The notes beneath the pieces are model-generated. The model was not told the DNA's origin, searched no databases, and saw only the letters and a program-made list of their open reading frames with translations. The position numbers and the translations under genes are program-made. DNA of 41,083 bases from a virus: IMG/VR virus record IMGVR_UViG_3300023223_000787, positions 1-41,083 of that record; one strand, 5' to 3'. Shown piece by piece: positions 1 through 41,083 of the stretch (within the stretch, counting starts at the first letter, position 1; each line of letters begins with the position of its first letter).

Positions 1-30
1 GGATCGTCACGATGTTTAGCCACTACACGA
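1..30. repeat. Terminal overlap, copy 1 (circle closure)
   Basis: These 30 bases are identical to 40989-41018. Past one mismatch (31 against 41019) a further nine bases (32-40 and 41020-41028, AAGTCTGAT) also match. Joining the ends here restores a complete reading frame, so this is the closure of a circular or permuted assembly and not a biological repeat. Confidence 0.85.
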
Positions 31-2606: not shown

Positions 2607-2789
2607 ATGGATGAATCTATTAAAGAGCAGTCGATTGAAGATCTGCATAGTACCCTTAATATGATTTGCTTAGGGGTAGGCCCACTCACTGAGGAGGACA
2701 TAAGATTGGTCAATGAAGCTAAGGCAGAAATTCAAAGAAGAAGAAGAATAGCAGCTCAAAGACGAAATAACCAACAAATTAAGAGGTAA
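2607..2789 (+). CDS. Small basic helical protein, 60 aa
   Basis: The ATG follows AAGAGGTAACACA. The product is helical, with an arginine-rich C-terminus (IQRRRRIAAQRRNN). The last residues, NNQQIKR, and the TAA stop are encoded by copy 2 of the 29-bp leader repeat, so the reading frame may have been extended into that leader. An RNA or DNA binding role is possible from composition only. Confidence 0.55.
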   Translation: MDESIKEQSIEDLHSTLNMICLGVGPLTEEDIRLVNEAKAEIQRRRRIAAQRRNNQQIKR

Positions 2790-2796
2790 CACAATG
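2768..2796 (+). repeat. 29-bp leader repeat, copy 2
   Basis: Identical to 2278-2306. Here it encodes the C-terminus and stop of the gene at 2607 and supplies the ribosome site and ATG of ardA at 2794. Recombination between the copies would remove the genes at 2304 and 2607 precisely, leaving one leader. Confidence 0.8.
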
Positions 2797-3306
2797 ACTG
2801 ACACACCAAGGGTATACATAGCATCGCTAGCCCACTATAATGCGGGCAATCTTGTGGGGAAATGGTTTGATGTAGATGGGGATTTGGAAACCGATGTCCA
2901 TAAGTACATTCACTCCCTTTCTTGCCATGGTCAACCCTGCGAGGAGTGGGCCATTCATGATTATGAAGGCTTTGGAAAGTACAGAGTGAGTGAATATCAT
3001 GGGCTCCCTGAGCTTAAAGAGATAGCGGAGGCCATTGAAGAACATGGAGAAGCCATCACTGGATACATGGAAAACATGGGAGAGGTTTCCCCCGATATTC
3101 CAGCATTTGAAGAGGCATACTCTGGAGAATGGGATACAGAGCAAGATTATGCAGAGCAATTATTTAATGAAATATACCTTAGTGATGTTCCGCAACATCT
3201 AGAGGCTTATATTGACTATGAAAAGTGGACAAGAGACCTCTTTATGTGTGATTATTACAGCATTGACAACCCTGAGGGTGGGGTATGGGTATTTAGAAAT
3301 TGTTAG
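2794..3306 (+). CDS. ardA: ArdA-like antirestriction protein
   Basis: A 170-residue protein matching the ArdA family from end to end: MTDTPRVYIASLAHYNAG at the N-terminus, EEWAIHDYEGFG in the middle, a helical ELKEIAEAIEEHGE segment, then EAYSGEWDTEQDYAEQLF and YIDYEKWTRDLFM near the end. Known family members are acidic DNA mimics that block type I restriction enzymes; this one is also strongly acidic. Full length for the family (about 165-180 residues). Its early position suits protection of incoming DNA. Translation starts from the repeated leader with AAGAGG. Confidence 0.93.
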   Translation: MTDTPRVYIASLAHYNAGNLVGKWFDVDGDLETDVHKYIHSLSCHGQPCEEWAIHDYEGFGKYRVSEYHGLPELKEIAEAIEEHGEAITGYMENMGEVSPDIPAFEEAYSGEWDTEQDYAEQLFNEIYLSDVPQHLEAYIDYEKWTRDLFMCDYYSIDNPEGGVWVFRNC

Positions 3307-7831: not shown

Positions 7832-8144
7832 GACACTGTAACCCAACTAAAACATGAAAGGCCCTCACTGCCGCACACGGAACTTTGTATGCATGGATGA
7901 ACCTATCAACCTCTTCACCACGAAAGCCACTCATAAGCATATCATGAGCAAGCCGCTCCATTTTCTCTCTGTACTTGGGATACAATTGGCAAATGAATTC
8001 AAAAGAATTATACTGTGGGAACCCATCCACTACGTTCCGAATGAATATCTGTTCCCACTGTGTTATAAAATAATCATACTGTGGACACCACACTAGCGCA
8101 ATATATTTCTCATGGAAACTCTTTAATGTGCAATTTGTGGGCAA
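7659..8144 (-). CDS. Hypothetical protein, 161 aa, with overlapping tail
   Basis: It lies between the primase and RusA genes. The TTG at 8144 lies inside the primase 3' end and no ATG with a good ribosome site is seen, so the start is uncertain. The first 100 residues look like a genuine helical protein (FHEKYIALVWCPQYDYFITQ, then YPKYREKMERLAHDMLMSGF and EEVDRFIHAYKV). The last 58 or so residues (GVRKTYSGIGARRSGSVKEK onward) lie over the RusA coding region in another frame and are basic and low in hydrophobics, as expected for overprinted sequence. Function unknown. Confidence 0.5.
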   Translation of the reverse strand: MPTNCTLKSFHEKYIALVWCPQYDYFITQWEQIFIRNVVDGFPQYNSFEFICQLYPKYREKMERLAHDMLMSGFRGEEVDRFIHAYKVPCAAVRAFHVLVGLQCHGIGDKGVRKTYSGIGARRSGSVKEKLKTIGHTPRKTTLLPKQSVSKQIALICKSDK

Positions 8145-9081
8145 GTATTGTCAGCGCCTCAAAAAAACCACAATGATGTACCTTCTTAATGAAATCTATA
8201 CTATCCCCCTTCTCTCCGCAACCTAAACAATAAAAATAATCTCTGAGGCACCCGAATGATCCTTTGGTTTCGTGATGAAAGGGACAAATAAAATGATTCC
8301 ACTTACCATGCTTGCCCACAAAGGGGGTAATGGCTTCCACTAATGGGGTAAGATCCACCCTTTCTTTAACCATTTCTTTCAAACTCTTACCATGATCTGT
8401 GATCTTTGGCACAGGGGTGGGGTTTTTTAACTCTAAATGTTCGCTATGGGAGGGGCTGAGCGCAAGAGGAAGGTGTGGCTTGGCTGATTTAAGTGCTATC
8501 TGCAAGTAGTGGTGGAGCTTTCTCCTTTGCCAATCGGGAATCCTACTGTACCCATCCCATTCAAACTGTTGTTTGAAGAAATCTACACAATCTCCCTTGG
8601 GTGGCAGGTTTAGTAAGTTGCATAACAATGTTCTAGGTGGAGAGGGGAGCTGTGCCAGAGAGGTAGCTACTGAATCAGCGAAAACCATCCCCGCATTGTC
8701 ATTATCAGGCAGAATGCACACCCCAACCCGCCCATTAAGGGGAGAAAAGTCTGCATGTTGCACCGAATTGGCACCGAAAGGAGGACTTACCGCCACATAT
8801 CCCAATTGGTGGAGAGCCCTTGCACATTTCTCACCCTCCACCACTAACACCCCAAGGTAAGGTTTCTTGGACAAAAGGTTAAGGCCATATAGAGGGCGCG
8901 GTTTGTCTGCGGAACCTTTAAGAAAAGAATTGTATGCACCTTGTCTAAAATACGGTAGGATGCGTTTGCCCTGGATGGAATCATACCTCGCTACCCATCC
9001 AAGGACTTTACCATTAGTGCTCTTATAGCACCACGCATAGGTGAGGGGGGAGTCATAGAAAAATCCTGGGGGATGCCACAT
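8110..9081 (-). CDS. TOPRIM and CHC2 zinc-finger primase-like protein with inverted domain order
   Basis: A 323-residue protein. A TOPRIM domain comes first: VLVVEGEKCARAL (about residues 78-90, acidic E82 and E84) and CILPDNDNAG (122-131, DxD motif). It is preceded by the GWVARYDSIQGKRIL-type segment seen in phage primases. A linker follows. A DnaG-type CHC2 zinc-finger domain lies at the C-terminus: VKERVDLTPLVEAITPF, CPFHHETKGSF, YFYCLGCGEKGDSIDFI (C266, H269, C285, C288), then EALTILAHKL. In known DnaG-type primases CHC2 is N-terminal to TOPRIM, so the order is reversed here. GAGAGG lies 7 nt before the ATG, so an N-terminal truncation is unlikely. Expected role: RNA primer synthesis. No helicase domain is present. 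Confidence 0.85.
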   Translation of the reverse strand: MWHPPGFFYDSPLTYAWCYKSTNGKVLGWVARYDSIQGKRILPYFRQGAYNSFLKGSADKPRPLYGLNLLSKKPYLGVLVVEGEKCARALHQLGYVAVSPPFGANSVQHADFSPLNGRVGVCILPDNDNAGMVFADSVATSLAQLPSPPRTLLCNLLNLPPKGDCVDFFKQQFEWDGYSRIPDWQRRKLHHYLQIALKSAKPHLPLALSPSHSEHLELKNPTPVPKITDHGKSLKEMVKERVDLTPLVEAITPFVGKHGKWNHFICPFHHETKGSFGCLRDYFYCLGCGEKGDSIDFIKKVHHCGFFEALTILAHKLHIKEFP

Positions 9082-11984: not shown

Positions 11985-12184
11985 GATTTATAAAAGTGGA
12001 TGAAGATGAGTGGGTTAATGTTGATTGGATTCAGGAAATAAAATTGTTTAGGCAGAAGGAATCTTGGTGTGTTCAGGTGCGATTTGTTGGAAATGAATTT
12101 GAAGATTTGAGAGAATTTAAATTCACCTCAGAAAGCACTGGCAGAGATAAACTTAATGCCCTTCTTTCACAGGTAAGAAAATGA
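11981..12184 (+). CDS. Small phage protein, 67 aa
   Basis: MRFIKVDEDEWVNVDWIQEI followed by WCVQVRFVGNEFEDLREF: three or four beta strands and a C-terminal helix. This 'FIKVxxxxWVNxDxI' form is frequent in small bacterial and phage proteins of unknown function. ATGA overlaps link it to both neighbours. Confidence 0.65.
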   Translation: MRFIKVDEDEWVNVDWIQEIKLFRQKESWCVQVRFVGNEFEDLREFKFTSESTGRDKLNALLSQVRK

Positions 12185-12855
12185 GTGTTCATTTCCTTTC
12201 AAAGAATTCAGAATGGGAAACCCCACAGTGGCTTTTTGATAGGCTGAATGAAGAGTTTTTCTTTACACTCGATGTTTGTGCATCTTATACTAATGCTAAG
12301 TGTGAACAATATTACACCAAAGCAGAGAATGGTCTTACAAGAGCTTGGTTTGGAACTTGTTGGATGAATCCACCTTATGGGACAGAGATATCTGATTGGG
12401 TAGAGAGGGCATACGAAATGCAGAAGTTGGATGGGCGCATCGTAGGGCTTCTCCCCGCACGTACCGATACCAGATGGTTTCATGATTATGTGATGAAGGC
12501 TAAGGAGGTTAGGTTAATTAGGGGAAGATTGAAGTTTGTAGGTGCAGAACATTCGGCACCCTTCCCCTCCATGATTGTGGTATGGGGTCCGCAGGAATAT
12601 GAAGTCCCACGGTTCACTACATATAGGTTGAAGGAGTCAAAGAAAGAGAAATGCACAAAAGAACACGCGAAATCCCTAGAGTGCTCAGCGATCCCTACAG
12701 AGCCCTCATTACAGCAGTGCTTGAAAGAGCGCTTTTTGATGCAGCCTATCTCCCCTTTGCAGGGGTTGGGGAGTCTACAACCACTCCTCGGAGCACCCTC
12801 CTTGTCCACACTAGGGCTAAAAGGTGGTTTAACCTCGAAGAAAGAGGAACCATGA
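12181..12855 (+). CDS. DNA N6-adenine methyltransferase, phage Dam type
   Basis: The first 140 or so of 224 residues match the phage Dam methylase family (PF05869 type): SEWETPQWLFDRLNEEFFFT, LDVCASYTNAKCEQYYTKAE, NPPYG at 63-67 (catalytic motif IV), then GRIVGLLPARTDTRWFHDYV and EVRLIRGRLKF. Known members transfer a methyl group from SAM to adenine, often within GATC, so this could shield the phage from restriction or time replication. The last 68 residues run over the next gene in another frame and look overprinted. Confidence 0.9.
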   Translation: MSVHFLSKNSEWETPQWLFDRLNEEFFFTLDVCASYTNAKCEQYYTKAENGLTRAWFGTCWMNPPYGTEISDWVERAYEMQKLDGRIVGLLPARTDTRWFHDYVMKAKEVRLIRGRLKFVGAEHSAPFPSMIVVWGPQEYEVPRFTTYRLKESKKEKCTKEHAKSLECSAIPTEPSLQQCLKERFLMQPISPLQGLGSLQPLLGAPSLSTLGLKGGLTSKKEEP

Positions 12856-34644: not shown

Positions 34645-35568
34645 TTATGCGCTGCTGATATGTAGGATATGCTCTCTGGAATGAACCGAATCAGACAATA
34701 CCTTAAAATGTACTGAAATCTCATACCAAGCCAAGCCCAAAAATCTACCATAGTCACGATCCTCTCTTCGGATCTCGATCGGAACCCCGACTTCTTTGAC
34801 CACGGCATCTGCCCCCATGAGGAACCCTTCCTTAAAAGCTCCGGTAGAGGTAGCAATCTTATGGTTATCAAGGACCAACCGCTGCATCTTTACCCTACCA
34901 ACTTCGTTGTTCAGGGCATCACGTCCCGAGTCCCTGGAAAGCAGGGTCGAAAGCGTGCTATCAATGGACAAAGATTCTATAGAATCAGGTCCCCATATGC
35001 CCAGGTAGGATTCGCCATCCCACTTTGGGATATTTTCATCGGTTGCGCGAGTGGTGATGAAACCGAGATTGTCAAGGTCAAGATCTGTATCCTGAGTAAA
35101 GGTTAGTGTACCATTCTTTACAAACTCACGGTCAGTAGCCGCTGCTGCCATTGCGATTTTCCAATCGGTGGCCTTAGCTGCATCATAAGATCTCGTGTTC
35201 ATGACCTTCTGAAAGTCATTCATAAGCGAAGCCAAATGGACATCATCAATATCCAATCGATTAAGATCCTTTAGCTTACCAGTGAATTGTATAGAATTGC
35301 CTAGCTCATCCAATGTGGCGGTTGCCTTAATTGGGGTGAGACCAGTACTTGGTATATCTTCGGTTTCTATTAATACACCCCCTTCGGTATCGACATCAGG
35401 CGCAAACGTATATTGAACGGTGTCGCCTTTCCCCTTTCCAAGCTCTCCTCCGGTGGGGGGGACCGCTGCCTGCGAAAATGCTTTCGAAGGTTGCGCTTCC
35501 TGCCTAACCACCATAGTAAGCTCATTGACACTTGTAGAAGCATCATAAGCTGCAAAAGTCTGTGGCAT
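34645..35568 (-). CDS. Major capsid protein (HK97-fold), 307 aa
   Basis: AAGGAG 8 nt before the ATG. The sequence starts MPQTFAAYDASTSVNELTMV and shows the capsid pattern of an N-arm, then GKGDTVQYTFAPDVDTEGGV, LTPIKATATLDELGNSIQFT, KVMNTRSYDAAKATDWKIAM, SYLGIWGPDSIESLSIDSTL and EVGVPIEIRREDRDYGRFLG with ARHE-like end. 'GKGDTV.......GG.L.E...IP' and 'LDELGNSIQFTGKL' recall N4 gp56-type capsids. Located after a scaffold-like gene and of typical length. Confidence 0.8.
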   Translation of the reverse strand: MPQTFAAYDASTSVNELTMVVRQEAQPSKAFSQAAVPPTGGELGKGKGDTVQYTFAPDVDTEGGVLIETEDIPSTGLTPIKATATLDELGNSIQFTGKLKDLNRLDIDDVHLASLMNDFQKVMNTRSYDAAKATDWKIAMAAAATDREFVKNGTLTFTQDTDLDLDNLGFITTRATDENIPKWDGESYLGIWGPDSIESLSIDSTLSTLLSRDSGRDALNNEVGRVKMQRLVLDNHKIATSTGAFKEGFLMGADAVVKEVGVPIEIRREDRDYGRFLGLAWYEISVHFKVLSDSVHSREHILHISSA

Positions 35569-36567: not shown

Positions 36568-38706
36568 TTATTGGTTTACGATGTTGAGAGCACCTTCTGG
36601 AAATCTTGCGCCATTTTGAGGGGCTCCCTGTGCATTCTGTTGCTGCTGCTGTTGCTGCTGTTCTTGTGCAGCTTGAATCTGTAAAAGAATCTGCTGGTGC
36701 TGCTGTGCATGTTGCTGGAGCGCTGGTGTGGCGCTTGGGGTATTGAGCAATAAAGAATGTGATTGGAAGTGCAGCTCATGGTCATCTTGCTCTTGCACCT
36801 CCACTCCCCTACCCGCAAGGAGAAGCTGATTCTCCAGATTGATCCTTCCCAACACAGTATCGGGAATGAAGAAGTCATCCACATTCTCAAATCCAATTGC
36901 CTCAAATGCTTCTTTAGCAAGAGGGGCAAGATTTACCATCTGAGCAATAGGACCGCTGCTGTTAACAATAGCAAGTGCATCATTGAAGTCATCAATCTTG
37001 GACGATTTGTCAATCTCAGAACTAAATCCCTTAATCTTAAAACGATAGAAATTATTGAGGATACCAAGCCTTTGTCTTTCATCCAGTTCTGAGAGAACTC
37101 GAATCTCCCCTGCGTCCAGTACCTCTTGTATCTCTGGATTAGTTGTGATGGTTGGAATTGCAAATTGAAGTATGCGGGCAAAGGTTTTCTCCAGAAGTGG
37201 GATGATAAAGGTGAGTTCAAGGTCAATGGCAACATTGTTTACATTGCGCTGTGTGCCCTGAGATCTTATCTGTGACTCTGCTGCTGTGACTCTGCTTCTT
37301 TGGGTTTGACCTCCAAGGTCAATTTCTGATATACCCATTTGCTCATCAATGGACTGCTGTAATATCTGGTTTGTGGGGGTGAATTGATTCTCAATGTTTG
37401 AGGTAAGGCTCACATGATGAAAGGCATCGCGGGGTGGTCCAAAGGTTTCAATTATCTTTCCAGGTTCTATCCCTGTTTCAAGAATACCCTTATCCACCAG
37501 CTTGGCATAGTCCACTCCTGTGATTCCCACAGTGTTGAATCTCATCTGGTCATTCGCCAGATTCATATTTGCGTCAAGTTCTCTTGACATTTGGACTGCA
37601 TTATCACCCGCGCCTGCGCCTGTGGGACGGAAGGGAACCTCCTTCACAGCACTGTCTACAAATGGGGTAAGTTTATGGGCGGGTGGCTCCCAATATGGAT
37701 ACTCCTCCCATTCCTTAATAAGTACAGAATTGTTGGCTATGACACAGCCCCAAGCTTCCTTTTTAATCTCCCCATCCAAAATGAGGGGACCAAAATAAAT
37801 GGTAAGCTCTACCACATCAGAGTTTTGGTCTGTGGTGAGATTCTTAAAACGAAAGTTCCGTGTGCGGGTGTGTTCCTGCAACTGCCCAGTACTCACCATA
37901 CTCACTGCTTTCTTATTGAAAAAGCCTTTCTTCGCAAGGTCCTCTAATTGCCACAACCTCATACGGGTTTTGTAGGCACCCTGCATTGACTCTTCCATGT
38001 ATTGGGTATTGGTGTCCCAATAGCGATCCATGGGATTTATCACCTGAAGGTCTAGGCATCCCACCTGTATGAAGGGCTTGATATTCTTTTCTGGCCTTGC
38101 GGGCTCATCCCCAGAGAGAATCGCGGGAAGTTCGTTGAAGGATGCCTCCACACTGTCCCGCAAGCCCACCTCATCCTCGATTGTGAGCATGGGATTCTGT
38201 ACCTGATCGGCAAGTTCTTTCTGCTCCCTCACCACCTGGGGCTTTGTTTTAAGGGATGTCCACTCGGGATTCCTTACAAGACAATTCTTCCACGCTACCG
38301 CTACAGAGCCCATAGAAATGTATGAGCTGAGCAGAAAGGTGGAAGCTCTCCTTTTAAATCCTGCTTTACCAAGGTAGTAATCTTGGAGCTTTTTGAATAT
38401 AGGAGCAAGAAGAAGGGCAAGCTCATTGTCTGAGTTTTGAGGCTCAAAGTCATAGAAGTCTGGTTGGGTAAGTAGTACCTCTCTACTTCTTCCAGCAGCA
38501 CTTCTTATTCTGGCTTCATATTTGCCCAATGAGAAATTGCTTTGCCACTCTTGCTTTTCATGGAAGATAGACCCATCCGTGAACTGAACGAAGTTATCTA
38601 TCCATTTGTTTTTAATGAGGTTGGTCTCTTCATCATGCTTAGTGATCCACTGGCTGACAAAGGAGACCTTTTCCTCATCCTTAACTCTTTTACTTTTTCT
38701 TGCCAA
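36568..38706 (-). CDS. Portal protein, 712 aa
   Basis: TTG start at 38706 with GGTGGAAAG about 8 nt upstream. The protein shows the large podovirus portal layout: N-terminal IRSAAGRSREVLLTQPDFYD and SFNELPAILSGD, an IYFGPLILDGEIKKEAWGCV strand pair, the crown helices with RELDANMNLANDQMRFNTVG and EQMGISEIDLGGQTQRSRVT, then NVAIDLELTFIIPLLEKTFA. It ends with a glutamine-rich tail (QQQQQQQQ near residue 688) encoded by a CTG/TTG-rich stretch at 36638-36670. Portals form the dodecameric gate at the capsid vertex. The gene lies between terminase and scaffold genes as expected. Confidence 0.82.
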   Translation of the reverse strand: MARKSKRVKDEEKVSFVSQWITKHDEETNLIKNKWIDNFVQFTDGSIFHEKQEWQSNFSLGKYEARIRSAAGRSREVLLTQPDFYDFEPQNSDNELALLLAPIFKKLQDYYLGKAGFKRRASTFLLSSYISMGSVAVAWKNCLVRNPEWTSLKTKPQVVREQKELADQVQNPMLTIEDEVGLRDSVEASFNELPAILSGDEPARPEKNIKPFIQVGCLDLQVINPMDRYWDTNTQYMEESMQGAYKTRMRLWQLEDLAKKGFFNKKAVSMVSTGQLQEHTRTRNFRFKNLTTDQNSDVVELTIYFGPLILDGEIKKEAWGCVIANNSVLIKEWEEYPYWEPPAHKLTPFVDSAVKEVPFRPTGAGAGDNAVQMSRELDANMNLANDQMRFNTVGITGVDYAKLVDKGILETGIEPGKIIETFGPPRDAFHHVSLTSNIENQFTPTNQILQQSIDEQMGISEIDLGGQTQRSRVTAAESQIRSQGTQRNVNNVAIDLELTFIIPLLEKTFARILQFAIPTITTNPEIQEVLDAGEIRVLSELDERQRLGILNNFYRFKIKGFSSEIDKSSKIDDFNDALAIVNSSGPIAQMVNLAPLAKEAFEAIGFENVDDFFIPDTVLGRINLENQLLLAGRGVEVQEQDDHELHFQSHSLLLNTPSATPALQQHAQQHQQILLQIQAAQEQQQQQQQQNAQGAPQNGARFPEGALNIVNQ

Positions 38707-38880: not shown

Positions 38881-40488
38881 CTATCTATATGTATTGGCGA
38901 ATGAGAAGGTTTTACCCCCCCTCTTAAAATGTTTTGCTTTGAGTGACCACTTAAGATAAAAAGTGATTAGTCTTGTGGCGATTACCACTGGGCTCTTAGA
39001 TTGAAACCTATCATAACCAAGCACCCAAAGATTGTTATTGTGATCTATACATGCTGCAAGAAACACAGTGAAGTCTGATTGTCCACCCTCTGAATAAGCA
39101 AGGTCTCCCGAAATGTATAGGTGTGCAGGAAGGTCTTTTGGGGGATATATTCCCTCTGCGAGAAATGCAGGTATCATGTGGAGGGCATCAGCTATATCAT
39201 CATGCTTTGCAGCTCCAAGCCTTCGAAGCTCATAACCCAAAGAATCAGTGTTGGATATATTGGGAGGAATCATCCAAGCCCTGCACTTCAACCTCCCCTC
39301 TCTGGTGATTGGCTCAAGTGCGGCACATATCTTATCTGTTTTCGTGAGGCCCTTCTCCTTCTTCTGGGCCACCGGGACAAGATACATCCCAACATTCTGT
39401 TCCCTATTTATCTCCTCCATGAGAGAGAATATGGGCTTCCCGCCCCCAGTGATTTCTATTCCCACCTTCATACACTGACCGAAATCGGGGGTATCTTCGG
39501 GTTTATATATGTCAATGTCTTTTATGTGGAGAATCTGGTCTTCTTCTGGAACTGGATTATTTCTCATTTGGCAGGCAAAGTAGTGGCGAGACTTTGGATC
39601 TGGTACAGACATTTCCCTTATAAGACCATCGTGGGGAAATCCCGAAACATGCTTTGAACCCCACCTTTTCTTTAGGGGATATATAGGGTCCTTTTTGGGG
39701 TCATCTTGGATAAAGCAGCTCTTCACCAAACAGTGGAAATATCCCTGCTTCCCCACAATCTTTTTGTCAATGGCCCGACCCGCTGAATCACTATCATGAT
39801 AGCGGGTTTGGTTCCAACGAAACACCCCATTGGGGGGTAAGAGGCGAAGACAATTGTCAATGAATCTTATCTGCTTCTCCCAACCTTCAGGAGATGAATT
39901 TTTGTCTACGCAAATGTCATCTAAATAGCATTCGTCTGGATGGTAGCCTGTTATGTTTTTATTTACAGAAGCGAGAAGGAGGGTTGGTTCCAATCTTGCC
40001 CTTCTTGCATGAGAGGGCAAGGTGTATGCATACATACCCCACTTTTCACACTCTGCGGTAGAAGATGGAAGGATGTCGGAAAAAGCCCACTGAAGCGTTG
40101 TATTTTTTAATAGAGTGTTCCCTACGAGGCTTCCGATACCCTTCGCTAAGTCCTCAGTGGCCGAGGCCGCGAGGATTGAAATCGATGGTTCTTTAATAAT
40201 ACTCTGAATAATCCTTGCACCAGAGAAGAGAGTTTTTACATGTCCTCTGGGCAGAACAATAAGTTGGTCTTCATGCTCATGCTTCGAAGCAAAGGAAAGT
40301 AATTCTTTCCCATGAAGCTCTTCATCAAGAAAGTGCCAACCCAACACTGCCCTAATCAGGAACCACAGGTCTTCCCTGCACAAAGCTCTAAAAGCCTCTT
40401 TGTACTTTGCTTTACTTTTGGATTTTAGGTGCTTTAGAATCTGGAGCTTTTCCCTTACCGCTTGGTCAGGGTGCTCATGTATTATCAT
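38881..40488 (-). CDS. Large terminase subunit with a circularly permuted nuclease domain
   Basis: A 535-residue packaging motor. The ATPase half is regular: Walker A-like LPRGHVKT (79-86), Walker B ECYLDDI (186-192), coupling segment RWNQTRYHDSD (224-234), CQMRNNPVPEED (306-317). In the nuclease half, the segment KVGIEITGGGKPIFSLMEEI (341-360, motif II) and GAAKHDDIADALHMIPAFL (425-443, motif III) come first, followed by HLYISGDLAYSEGGQSDF (456-473, motif I with D462 and D472), NNNLWVLGYDRFQS and a final helix (ATRLITFYLKWSLKAKHF). In known terminases motif I comes before II and III. The frame is open throughout. Walker A has V in place of the usual G or S before K. Confidence 0.87.
   Translation of the reverse strand: MIIHEHPDQAVREKLQILKHLKSKSKAKYKEAFRALCREDLWFLIRAVLGWHFLDEELHGKELLSFASKHEHEDQLIVLPRGHVKTLFSGARIIQSIIKEPSISILAASATEDLAKGIGSLVGNTLLKNTTLQWAFSDILPSSTAECEKWGMYAYTLPSHARRARLEPTLLLASVNKNITGYHPDECYLDDICVDKNSSPEGWEKQIRFIDNCLRLLPPNGVFRWNQTRYHDSDSAGRAIDKKIVGKQGYFHCLVKSCFIQDDPKKDPIYPLKKRWGSKHVSGFPHDGLIREMSVPDPKSRHYFACQMRNNPVPEEDQILHIKDIDIYKPEDTPDFGQCMKVGIEITGGGKPIFSLMEEINREQNVGMYLVPVAQKKEKGLTKTDKICAALEPITREGRLKCRAWMIPPNISNTDSLGYELRRLGAAKHDDIADALHMIPAFLAEGIYPPKDLPAHLYISGDLAYSEGGQSDFTVFLAACIDHNNNLWVLGYDRFQSKSPVVIATRLITFYLKWSLKAKHFKRGGKTFSFANTYR
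39070..39134. repeat. 65-bp direct repeat, internal copy (in terminase gene)
   Basis: Identical to the last 65 bases of the window (41019-41083). It encodes terminase residues of about 452-473, spanning the linker and motif I that sit at the permutation joint. This is the native context. Confidence 0.9.
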
Positions 40489-40688
40489 GACTTGATAAGT
40501 TTGGCCTTCTTCATGCGCCCCACAAAATCAGTAATGGCAATAGCAATCTTATCAACATCTTCACGAATCATCTCAGTCTTATAATCCATACTTTTAATTT
40601 TGTCTTCCATGGTGAAGAGGTTAAGAACCACCGCTGTCAGGGTGCCCAATATAATCCCGAAAACAAATACCACTATAAGTGCTGCCAT
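40485..40688 (-). CDS. Small membrane-anchored protein, 67 aa
   Basis: One N-terminal transmembrane helix (MAALIVVFVFGIILGTLTAV) followed by a charged amphipathic helix (KIKSMDYKTEMIREDVDKIA). It overlaps the preceding wrap gene (TAATG) and the terminase start (ATGA). A signal-arrest or spanin-like role is possible, but its place before terminase argues against a simple lysis role. Function unknown. Confidence 0.6.
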   Translation of the reverse strand: MAALIVVFVFGIILGTLTAVVLNLFTMEDKIKSMDYKTEMIREDVDKIAIAITDFVGRMKKAKLIKS

Positions 40689-40988
40689 TATAATCCCAAC
40701 TTTATCCTTCCAAAGATTGACTTGCCCTTCTCTTTCCCATTCACCCTTGTGGCTTCGGTTTCTGTGTGGGTACTCTCTGGGGTGGCGGGCTCTGAGGGGT
40801 CCTGAACAGAAGAAGGGTGAGTAGTGGAGGGCTGAGCTGGAGAGAACTCCAACCCCAAGGTTCCAGCCCTCCTGAACATCACATTTCCATCATCATCTTC
40901 AGTGACTAAAAAAACCTCTCTCACAGGAATGTGCTTCTCTGCTGCCTCTATAAGTTCCGAGAGGGAAAGTATAGGGGTGAAAATGGTT
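40688..40988 (-). CDS. 3' part of hypothetical protein gene that wraps across the circle
   Basis: This continues the frame that begins at 74. It encodes DDPTIFTPILSLSELIEAAE, then VREVFLVTEDDDGNVMFRRA and a Ser/Thr/Pro-rich tail (PAQPSTTHPSSVQDPSEPAT) ending in GKSIFGRIKLGL. A reading that starts at TTG 41050 instead uses the misplaced 65-bp copy and is an artefact. Together 124 residues. Likely a globular middle with flexible ends; function unknown. The stop overlaps the next start as TAATG. Confidence 0.75.
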
Positions 40989-41018
40989 GGATCGTCACGA
41001 TGTTTAGCCACTACACGA
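40989..41018. repeat. Terminal overlap, copy 2 (circle closure)
   Basis: Identical to 1-30. Removing everything from 40989 onward and joining to position 1 gives the restored wrap gene and a circular length of 40,988 bp. Confidence 0.85.
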
Positions 41019-41083
41019 GAAGTCTGATTGTCCACCCTCTGAATAAGCAAGGTCTCCCGAAATGTATAGGTGTGCAGGAAGGT
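41019..41083. repeat. 65-bp direct repeat, misplaced copy at the window end
   Basis: Exact copy of 39070-39134. It is joined to the closure overlap through the shared nine bases AAGTCTGAT. It interrupts the wrap gene and gives it a false TTG start. Chimeric read or assembly jump is the simplest reading; a real minority junction is discussed in the findings. Confidence 0.85.

Follow-up and report, generated by a model that had tools for sequence, protein, structure and literature searches.

The large terminase (TerL) of this virus probably carries a genuine circular permutation of its nuclease domain that preserves the fold, found in a single contig. The catalytic motifs read II-III-I instead of I-II-III, such that the two nuclease blocks behind the ATPase are exchanged. 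This reading is supported by the order of the profile matches, the completeness of the nuclease columns, an AlphaFold2 model of the permuted chain and structural matches to known terminases that cover one half of the domain each.

The terminase gene and its genomic setting

The window, i.e. the whole stretch of DNA that was analysed, comprises all 41083 bases of the IMG/VR record. The packaging and structural genes considered here are:

38881-40488, minus strand: TerL open reading frame (ORF), 535 aa, intact reading frame
36568-38706, after TerL: portal/head-tail adaptor, phrog_332 (PHROG match)
34645-35568, after TerL: major head protein, phrog_1357 (PHROG match)

An intact TerL frame had already been described in a sequence-only reading of this DNA and is borne out by the 535-aa ORF, whose start shares an ATGA with the overlapping upstream ORF 40485-40688. 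The neighbours on both sides are closely packed. The PHROG search assigned the ORF to the terminase large subunit family phrog_38 with an E-value of 1e-41 for the whole protein, in three stretches, and of 3e-23 for the ATPase part alone. The 41083-base record contains neither a further TerL fragment nor a second terminase.

The protein lies in a packaging and structural gene cluster, possesses an N-terminal ASCE ATPase with Walker A/B motifs homologous to TerL, and has an RNase H-like nuclease with the motif I Asp, the motif II acid and the motif III Asp (profile columns 333-489 covered). The nuclease order is II-III-I and not the collinear I-II-III. Given about 210 collinear relatives (see below), we file the protein as a permuted TerL homologue and not as a canonical member.

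Elsewhere the window contains an anti-restriction protein gene (2794-3306, plus strand, phrog_2059), a DNA methyltransferase gene (12181-12855, plus strand, phrog_111) and a 41-nt inverted repeat (187-227 and 1439-1479, 83% complementary) that flanks 1.2 kb of mostly non-coding DNA.

Order of the nuclease blocks

Relatives were gathered via the ATPase domain from GenBank phages, IMG/VR and GTDB genomes, and the TerL protein was compared with profiles of 76 and 152 canonical members. It divides into the following parts, all on the minus strand:

39496..40488, minus strand: block X, residues 1-331, ATPase and first part of the canonical ATPase-nuclease linker (phrog_38, 152-member profile)
39472..39516, minus strand: X/Y joint linker IDIYKPEDTPDFGQC, residues 325-339 (comparison with the canonical locus L166)
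39160..39471, minus strand: block Y, residues 340-443, motif II strand (E345), helix and strand, motif III helix (profile columns 394-489, model)
39124..39159, minus strand: Y/Z joint linker AEGIYPPKDLPA, residues 444-455, canonical tail (xPPK) fused to the canonical segment before motif I
38938..39123, minus strand: block Z, residues 456-517, motif I strand, hairpin strands, helix (profile columns 333-394, model)
38881..38937, minus strand: C-terminal tail, residues 518-535 and stop, a short predicted hairpin that resembles the canonical basic terminase tail

Block X contains a Walker A-like LPRGHVKT (residues 79-86) and a Walker B-like YLDD (residues 188-191), the motif III helix of block Y reads HDDIADAL with the acids D430/D431, and the motif I strand of block Z reads ISGDLAYS with the acid D462. 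With the 76-member profile, block X aligned over residues 27-328 to columns 5-309 (109 bits), block Y over residues 340-442 to columns 390-484 (8.6 bits within the full protein, 13.3 bits alone) and block Z over residues 455-517 to columns 328-390 (32.6-37.5 bits). The 152-member profile sharpened these matches: residues 26-331 of block X corresponded to columns 4-316 (138 bits), residues 340-443 of block Y to columns 394-489 (21-26 bits, E down to 8e-10) and residues 456-517 of block Z to columns 333-394 (34-39 bits, E down to 9e-14). Blocks Y and Z are thus swapped relative to the profile and meet exactly at column 394, which shows that the nuclease core is complete and lacks no part. As an independent model, phrog_38 matched the ATPase at columns 259-528 and the nuclease half alone in two stretches, the best of which placed residues 24-127 of 220 on columns 607-702 (E 3.8e-16). 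As judged from these profile scores, the swapped order lies far beyond chance. The first part of the nuclease corresponds to the last part of its homologues (columns 394-489) and its last part to their first (columns 333-394) with the core complete, as is characteristic for circular permutation. All three models agree with the II-III-I order proposed in the sequence-only reading, the motif positions given there were correct, and the block move it suggested amounts to a plain exchange of two adjacent blocks that returns the canonical order.

Block Z might alternatively resemble motif I by chance or be an unrelated added domain, so that no permutation would exist. In favour of this, no Pfam family matched the nuclease half, and block identity to the relatives is just 25-40%. 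Against it, the score of block Z falls on exactly the columns that are absent upstream, its identity reaches 40% over 62 aa, and in the structural model it forms b1-b3-aA of the domain. We consider either of these readings extremely improbable. The lack of a Pfam match is expected when the order is broken: the whole nuclease of the close relatives L166 and L177 is matched by PF17289 (Terminase_6C, the terminase RNase H-like domain), and for L177 the score exceeds the curated cut-off, whereas the nuclease half of the window protein has no match.

Relatives are collinear

In four partly overlapping scans, 74, 3, 77 and 57 relatives spanned the nuclease, and their profile matches were collinear without exception. 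This agrees with the earlier statement that known terminases carry the motif I block first. A search for further terminases with the permuted order, which the same reading had proposed, came out negative (0 of about 210 nuclease-covering relatives), leaving the window TerL as the single instance. The closest relatives by nuclease (L119/L178, L170/L184, L166, L177, L132 and L112) share roughly 25-32% identity per block. Searches guided by the ATPase returned canonical terminases only, and one scan of genome contigs gave three terminases, all canonical. Among viral contigs no close relatives of the whole TerL, of block Z or of the major head protein were found, and the exact DNA pattern encoding NQTRYHDSD was not found.

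The Zobellviridae-type and related TerL proteins of phrog_38, such as Vibrio phage ICP2 gp20, those of Methylophilales phage MEP401 and Vibrio phage VpV262, and the IMG/VR loci L166, L177, L132 and L119, share homologous ATPase and nuclease blocks, identical catalytic motifs and a downstream portal gene with the window. In these proteins the motif I block precedes the motif II/III block, whereas in the window the two are swapped.

Two other features were seen among the collected terminases. The TerL of a short IMG/VR contig (L179) has an in-frame TGA (1567-1569) at the boundary between the motif I and motif II blocks, where L177 has Gly, pointing to either TGA recoding or a sequence error. The terminases of L019, L187, L188, L205, L207, L212-L214, L218, L224 and L226 are 743-1072 aa long and probably bear inteins.

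Joints between the blocks

In close relatives the linker ahead of motif I resembles KYYEPDDLKGK..NKYI.VDPA and the tail past the HDD helix resembles ..FPPKRKK. KYYEPDDLKGK itself is the L166 counterpart of the X/Y linker and there precedes motif I. In context the window has IYKPEDTPDFGQC at the X/Y joint and IYPPKDLPAHLYISGD at the Y/Z joint, the latter being represented by FLAEGIYPPKDLPAHLYISGD as well. Comparing these joints with the linker and tail of the relatives places the simplest breakpoints after residues 331, 451 and 516. None of the three joints breaks the frame; they fall into the linker between the domains, the turn from aA to b4 and the tail at the C-terminus, i.e. within loops or tails, in line with the plausible linkers described earlier. 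The longest exact word common to the joint neighbourhoods is at most 8 nt, such that no graph ambiguity would yield the permuted order by itself.

Three candidate traces of a rearrangement were discarded or given little weight. The similarity of IYKPEDTP and IYPPKDLP was matched by 20-30 of 20,000 random pairs (about 0.0015), but the two linker copies were rejected as proof of a duplication, since the second copy agrees with the canonical tail motif xPPK as well. The stretch that follows block Z was rejected as the remnant of a second Y copy, with 2737-3223 of 20,000 random pairs scoring as high. ATATA words at all three joints are a weak signal, because ATATA is present seven times in the gene.

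Predicted structure of the nuclease half

Residues 318-535 were modelled with AlphaFold2. A first model based on a poorer alignment reached a pLDDT of 58.2 and a pTM of 0.62; the second model of the permuted chain, built from 63 alignment rows in which the Z and Y blocks of the relatives stood in separate rows, reached a pLDDT of 83.6 and a pTM of 0.84. Because of the separate rows the model speaks for feasibility and not for existence. The elements follow in the order b4, aB, b5, aC, HDD helix, b1, b2, b3, aA, with b4 at residues 341-345 and the HDD helix at 431-444 in block Y, and b1 at 455-462, b2 at 474-482, b3 at 487-495 and a helix at 500-515 in block Z. The structure prediction that had been suggested as a check thus recovers block Z as b1-b3-aA of the nuclease domain. 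Strands b4 and b1 terminate in E345 and D462, respectively, and the HDD helix begins with D430/D431. In the model these residues are placed as the acids of RNase H-like nucleases, and they may well meet at one metal site.

The earlier argument that the ends of the fold lie close together is also sterically reasonable: the C-terminal helix of terminases and b1 are antiparallel (PMC3985635), which brings the helix end near the b1 start, so that a short linker suffices.

In a VIA search the top match was the PhiV-1 terminase (8dgc_E), with a Z-score of 6.4, which being below 8 is suggestive only, and 129 aligned residues at 22% identity that cover model positions 1-135 only. HK97 TerL (6z6d) covered positions 1-126 only. 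The linker and the Y block are thus structurally common to both terminases and the window model, while the sequential structure alignment leaves out block Z. High-probability terminase matches in BFVD fell into two classes, a short one (58-68 columns, with 1.4-2.2 A for the tightest) and a longer one (about 102-135 columns), none of them extending across the whole permuted domain. Matching only one half at once is what sequence-ordered aligners would be expected to do with a permuted domain. Foldseek gave no significant match to the PDB with either model, which is likewise expected for a permuted chain, so that this absence is not evidence.

Contig end, primase and reality of the DNA order

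Two features at the contig end, absent from the sequence-only reading, and a second gene bear on whether the order is real:

40989..41018: circle-closing overlap, identical to window 1-30
41019..41083: chimeric contig tail, 65 nt, exact copy of 39070-39134 (block Z start)
8110-9081, minus strand: primase ORF, TOPRIM-type half (residues ~14-178) ahead of a complete CHC2 zinc finger, PF01807 (residues 236-320)

When the circle is closed through the overlap, the gene at 40688 (minus strand) gains a natural start, an ATG at 74-72 (MSSESQSPESEDQTF). The last 65 nt are therefore chimeric and lie outside the natural genome circle. They are attached at the 9-nt word ATCAGACTT and end 1-2 nt from the inferred Y/Z joint, where an assembly branch point may exist. 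The junction from 39070 to 41018 at ATCAGACTT is of the tandem-duplication type, with a unit of 1949 bp.

The phage primase relatives that were read out carry the zinc finger first, whereas the window primase has the reverse order. No phage relative covering 80% of it was found; among plasmids one record covers 81% in one piece (residues 14-275), leaving part of the zinc finger uncovered. Each primase domain is whole and the ORF both begins and ends at domain borders, which has the look of a natural rearrangement; even so, the presence of two order-inverted genes on the same contig calls for a shared cause.

Under an artefact of assembly or amplification, the true gene would be canonical, and chimeric reads or a wrong path through the graph would have switched two neighbouring blocks of about 360 and 195 bp in the contig. 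A lossless exchange of this kind is the expected result of a path error, the contig end is itself a chimera of the TerL locus that ends at the Y/Z joint, the primase gene is order-inverted as well, and the permuted order is absent from all relatives. However, an error would have to make three false joins that all preserve the frame (about 1/9 with random breaks) and all fall in a linker, turn or tail, a coincidence that may be put at ~1e-3 by rough estimate. Moreover, the joints offer no common word above 8 nt to mislead an assembler, and the permuted chain gives a confident AlphaFold2 model. We regard an artefact as unlikely, though by no means negligible. The earlier view that an assembly error is improbable stands as far as repeats at the joints are concerned, and is weakened by the tail copied from block Z and by the second order-inverted gene.

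Alternatively the DNA order may be real and the terminase damaged or recently rearranged, inactive, and carried by a minority or defective genome. The single instance and the chimeric tail, as a possible tandem-duplication junction nearby, fit this view; the full-length ORF with every motif kept, the tightly spaced flanking genes and the lack of a second terminase speak against it and make it very unlikely. In the preferred reading of a fold-preserving permutation, the arrangement would exist in the phage and the protein would be active.

Origin and function

The ancestral order would be ATPase - [b1 b2 b3 aA] - [b4 aB b5 ... HDD helix] and the permuted order ATPase - [b4 ... HDD helix] - [b1 b2 b3 aA], with the old nuclease end joined to the old start by AEGIYPPKDLPA and the new break in the aA-b4 turn. 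Recombination between the similar words of tail and linker may have duplicated the nuclease segment in tandem, after which the outer halves, namely the motif I block of the first copy and the motif II/III block of the second, would have been lost. Permutation by duplication is a known route (PMC3320104). The linkers are equally compatible with a plain two-block exchange, such as an error would produce, and with this duplication history. Swaposin and DNA methyltransferases show the same relation, with the old ends joined and new ends elsewhere (PMC3320104), whereas in the window TerL, an enzyme of two domains, the permutation would be confined to the C-terminal one.

The protein would function as an ordinary TerL, with an ATPase that drives DNA through the portal and a nuclease that cleaves it when packaging begins and ends. 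The mechanical difference would be that the interdomain linker enters the nuclease at b4 and not at b1, and that the chain ends after aA.

Discussion

Full-text searches of the literature, in a collection lacking most subscription papers, turned up no permuted terminase nuclease, and the main text of a survey of the RNase H-like superfamily does not contain the word stem "permut". Tentatively, and with considerable doubt, the window may hold the first known permuted TerL nuclease together with an order-inverted primase, with duplication-then-loss as an active route and the 39070/41018 junction as a live example.

Tailed phages and herpesviruses have TerL as a hallmark protein, whose nuclease serves in classification and as a model of two-metal DNA cutting. 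In some motor models the linker between ATPase and nuclease transmits movement between the domains. If the permutation is true, this linker need not enter the nuclease via the motif I strand, which would bear directly on such models, and profile searches could miss the nuclease domain of divergent phages.
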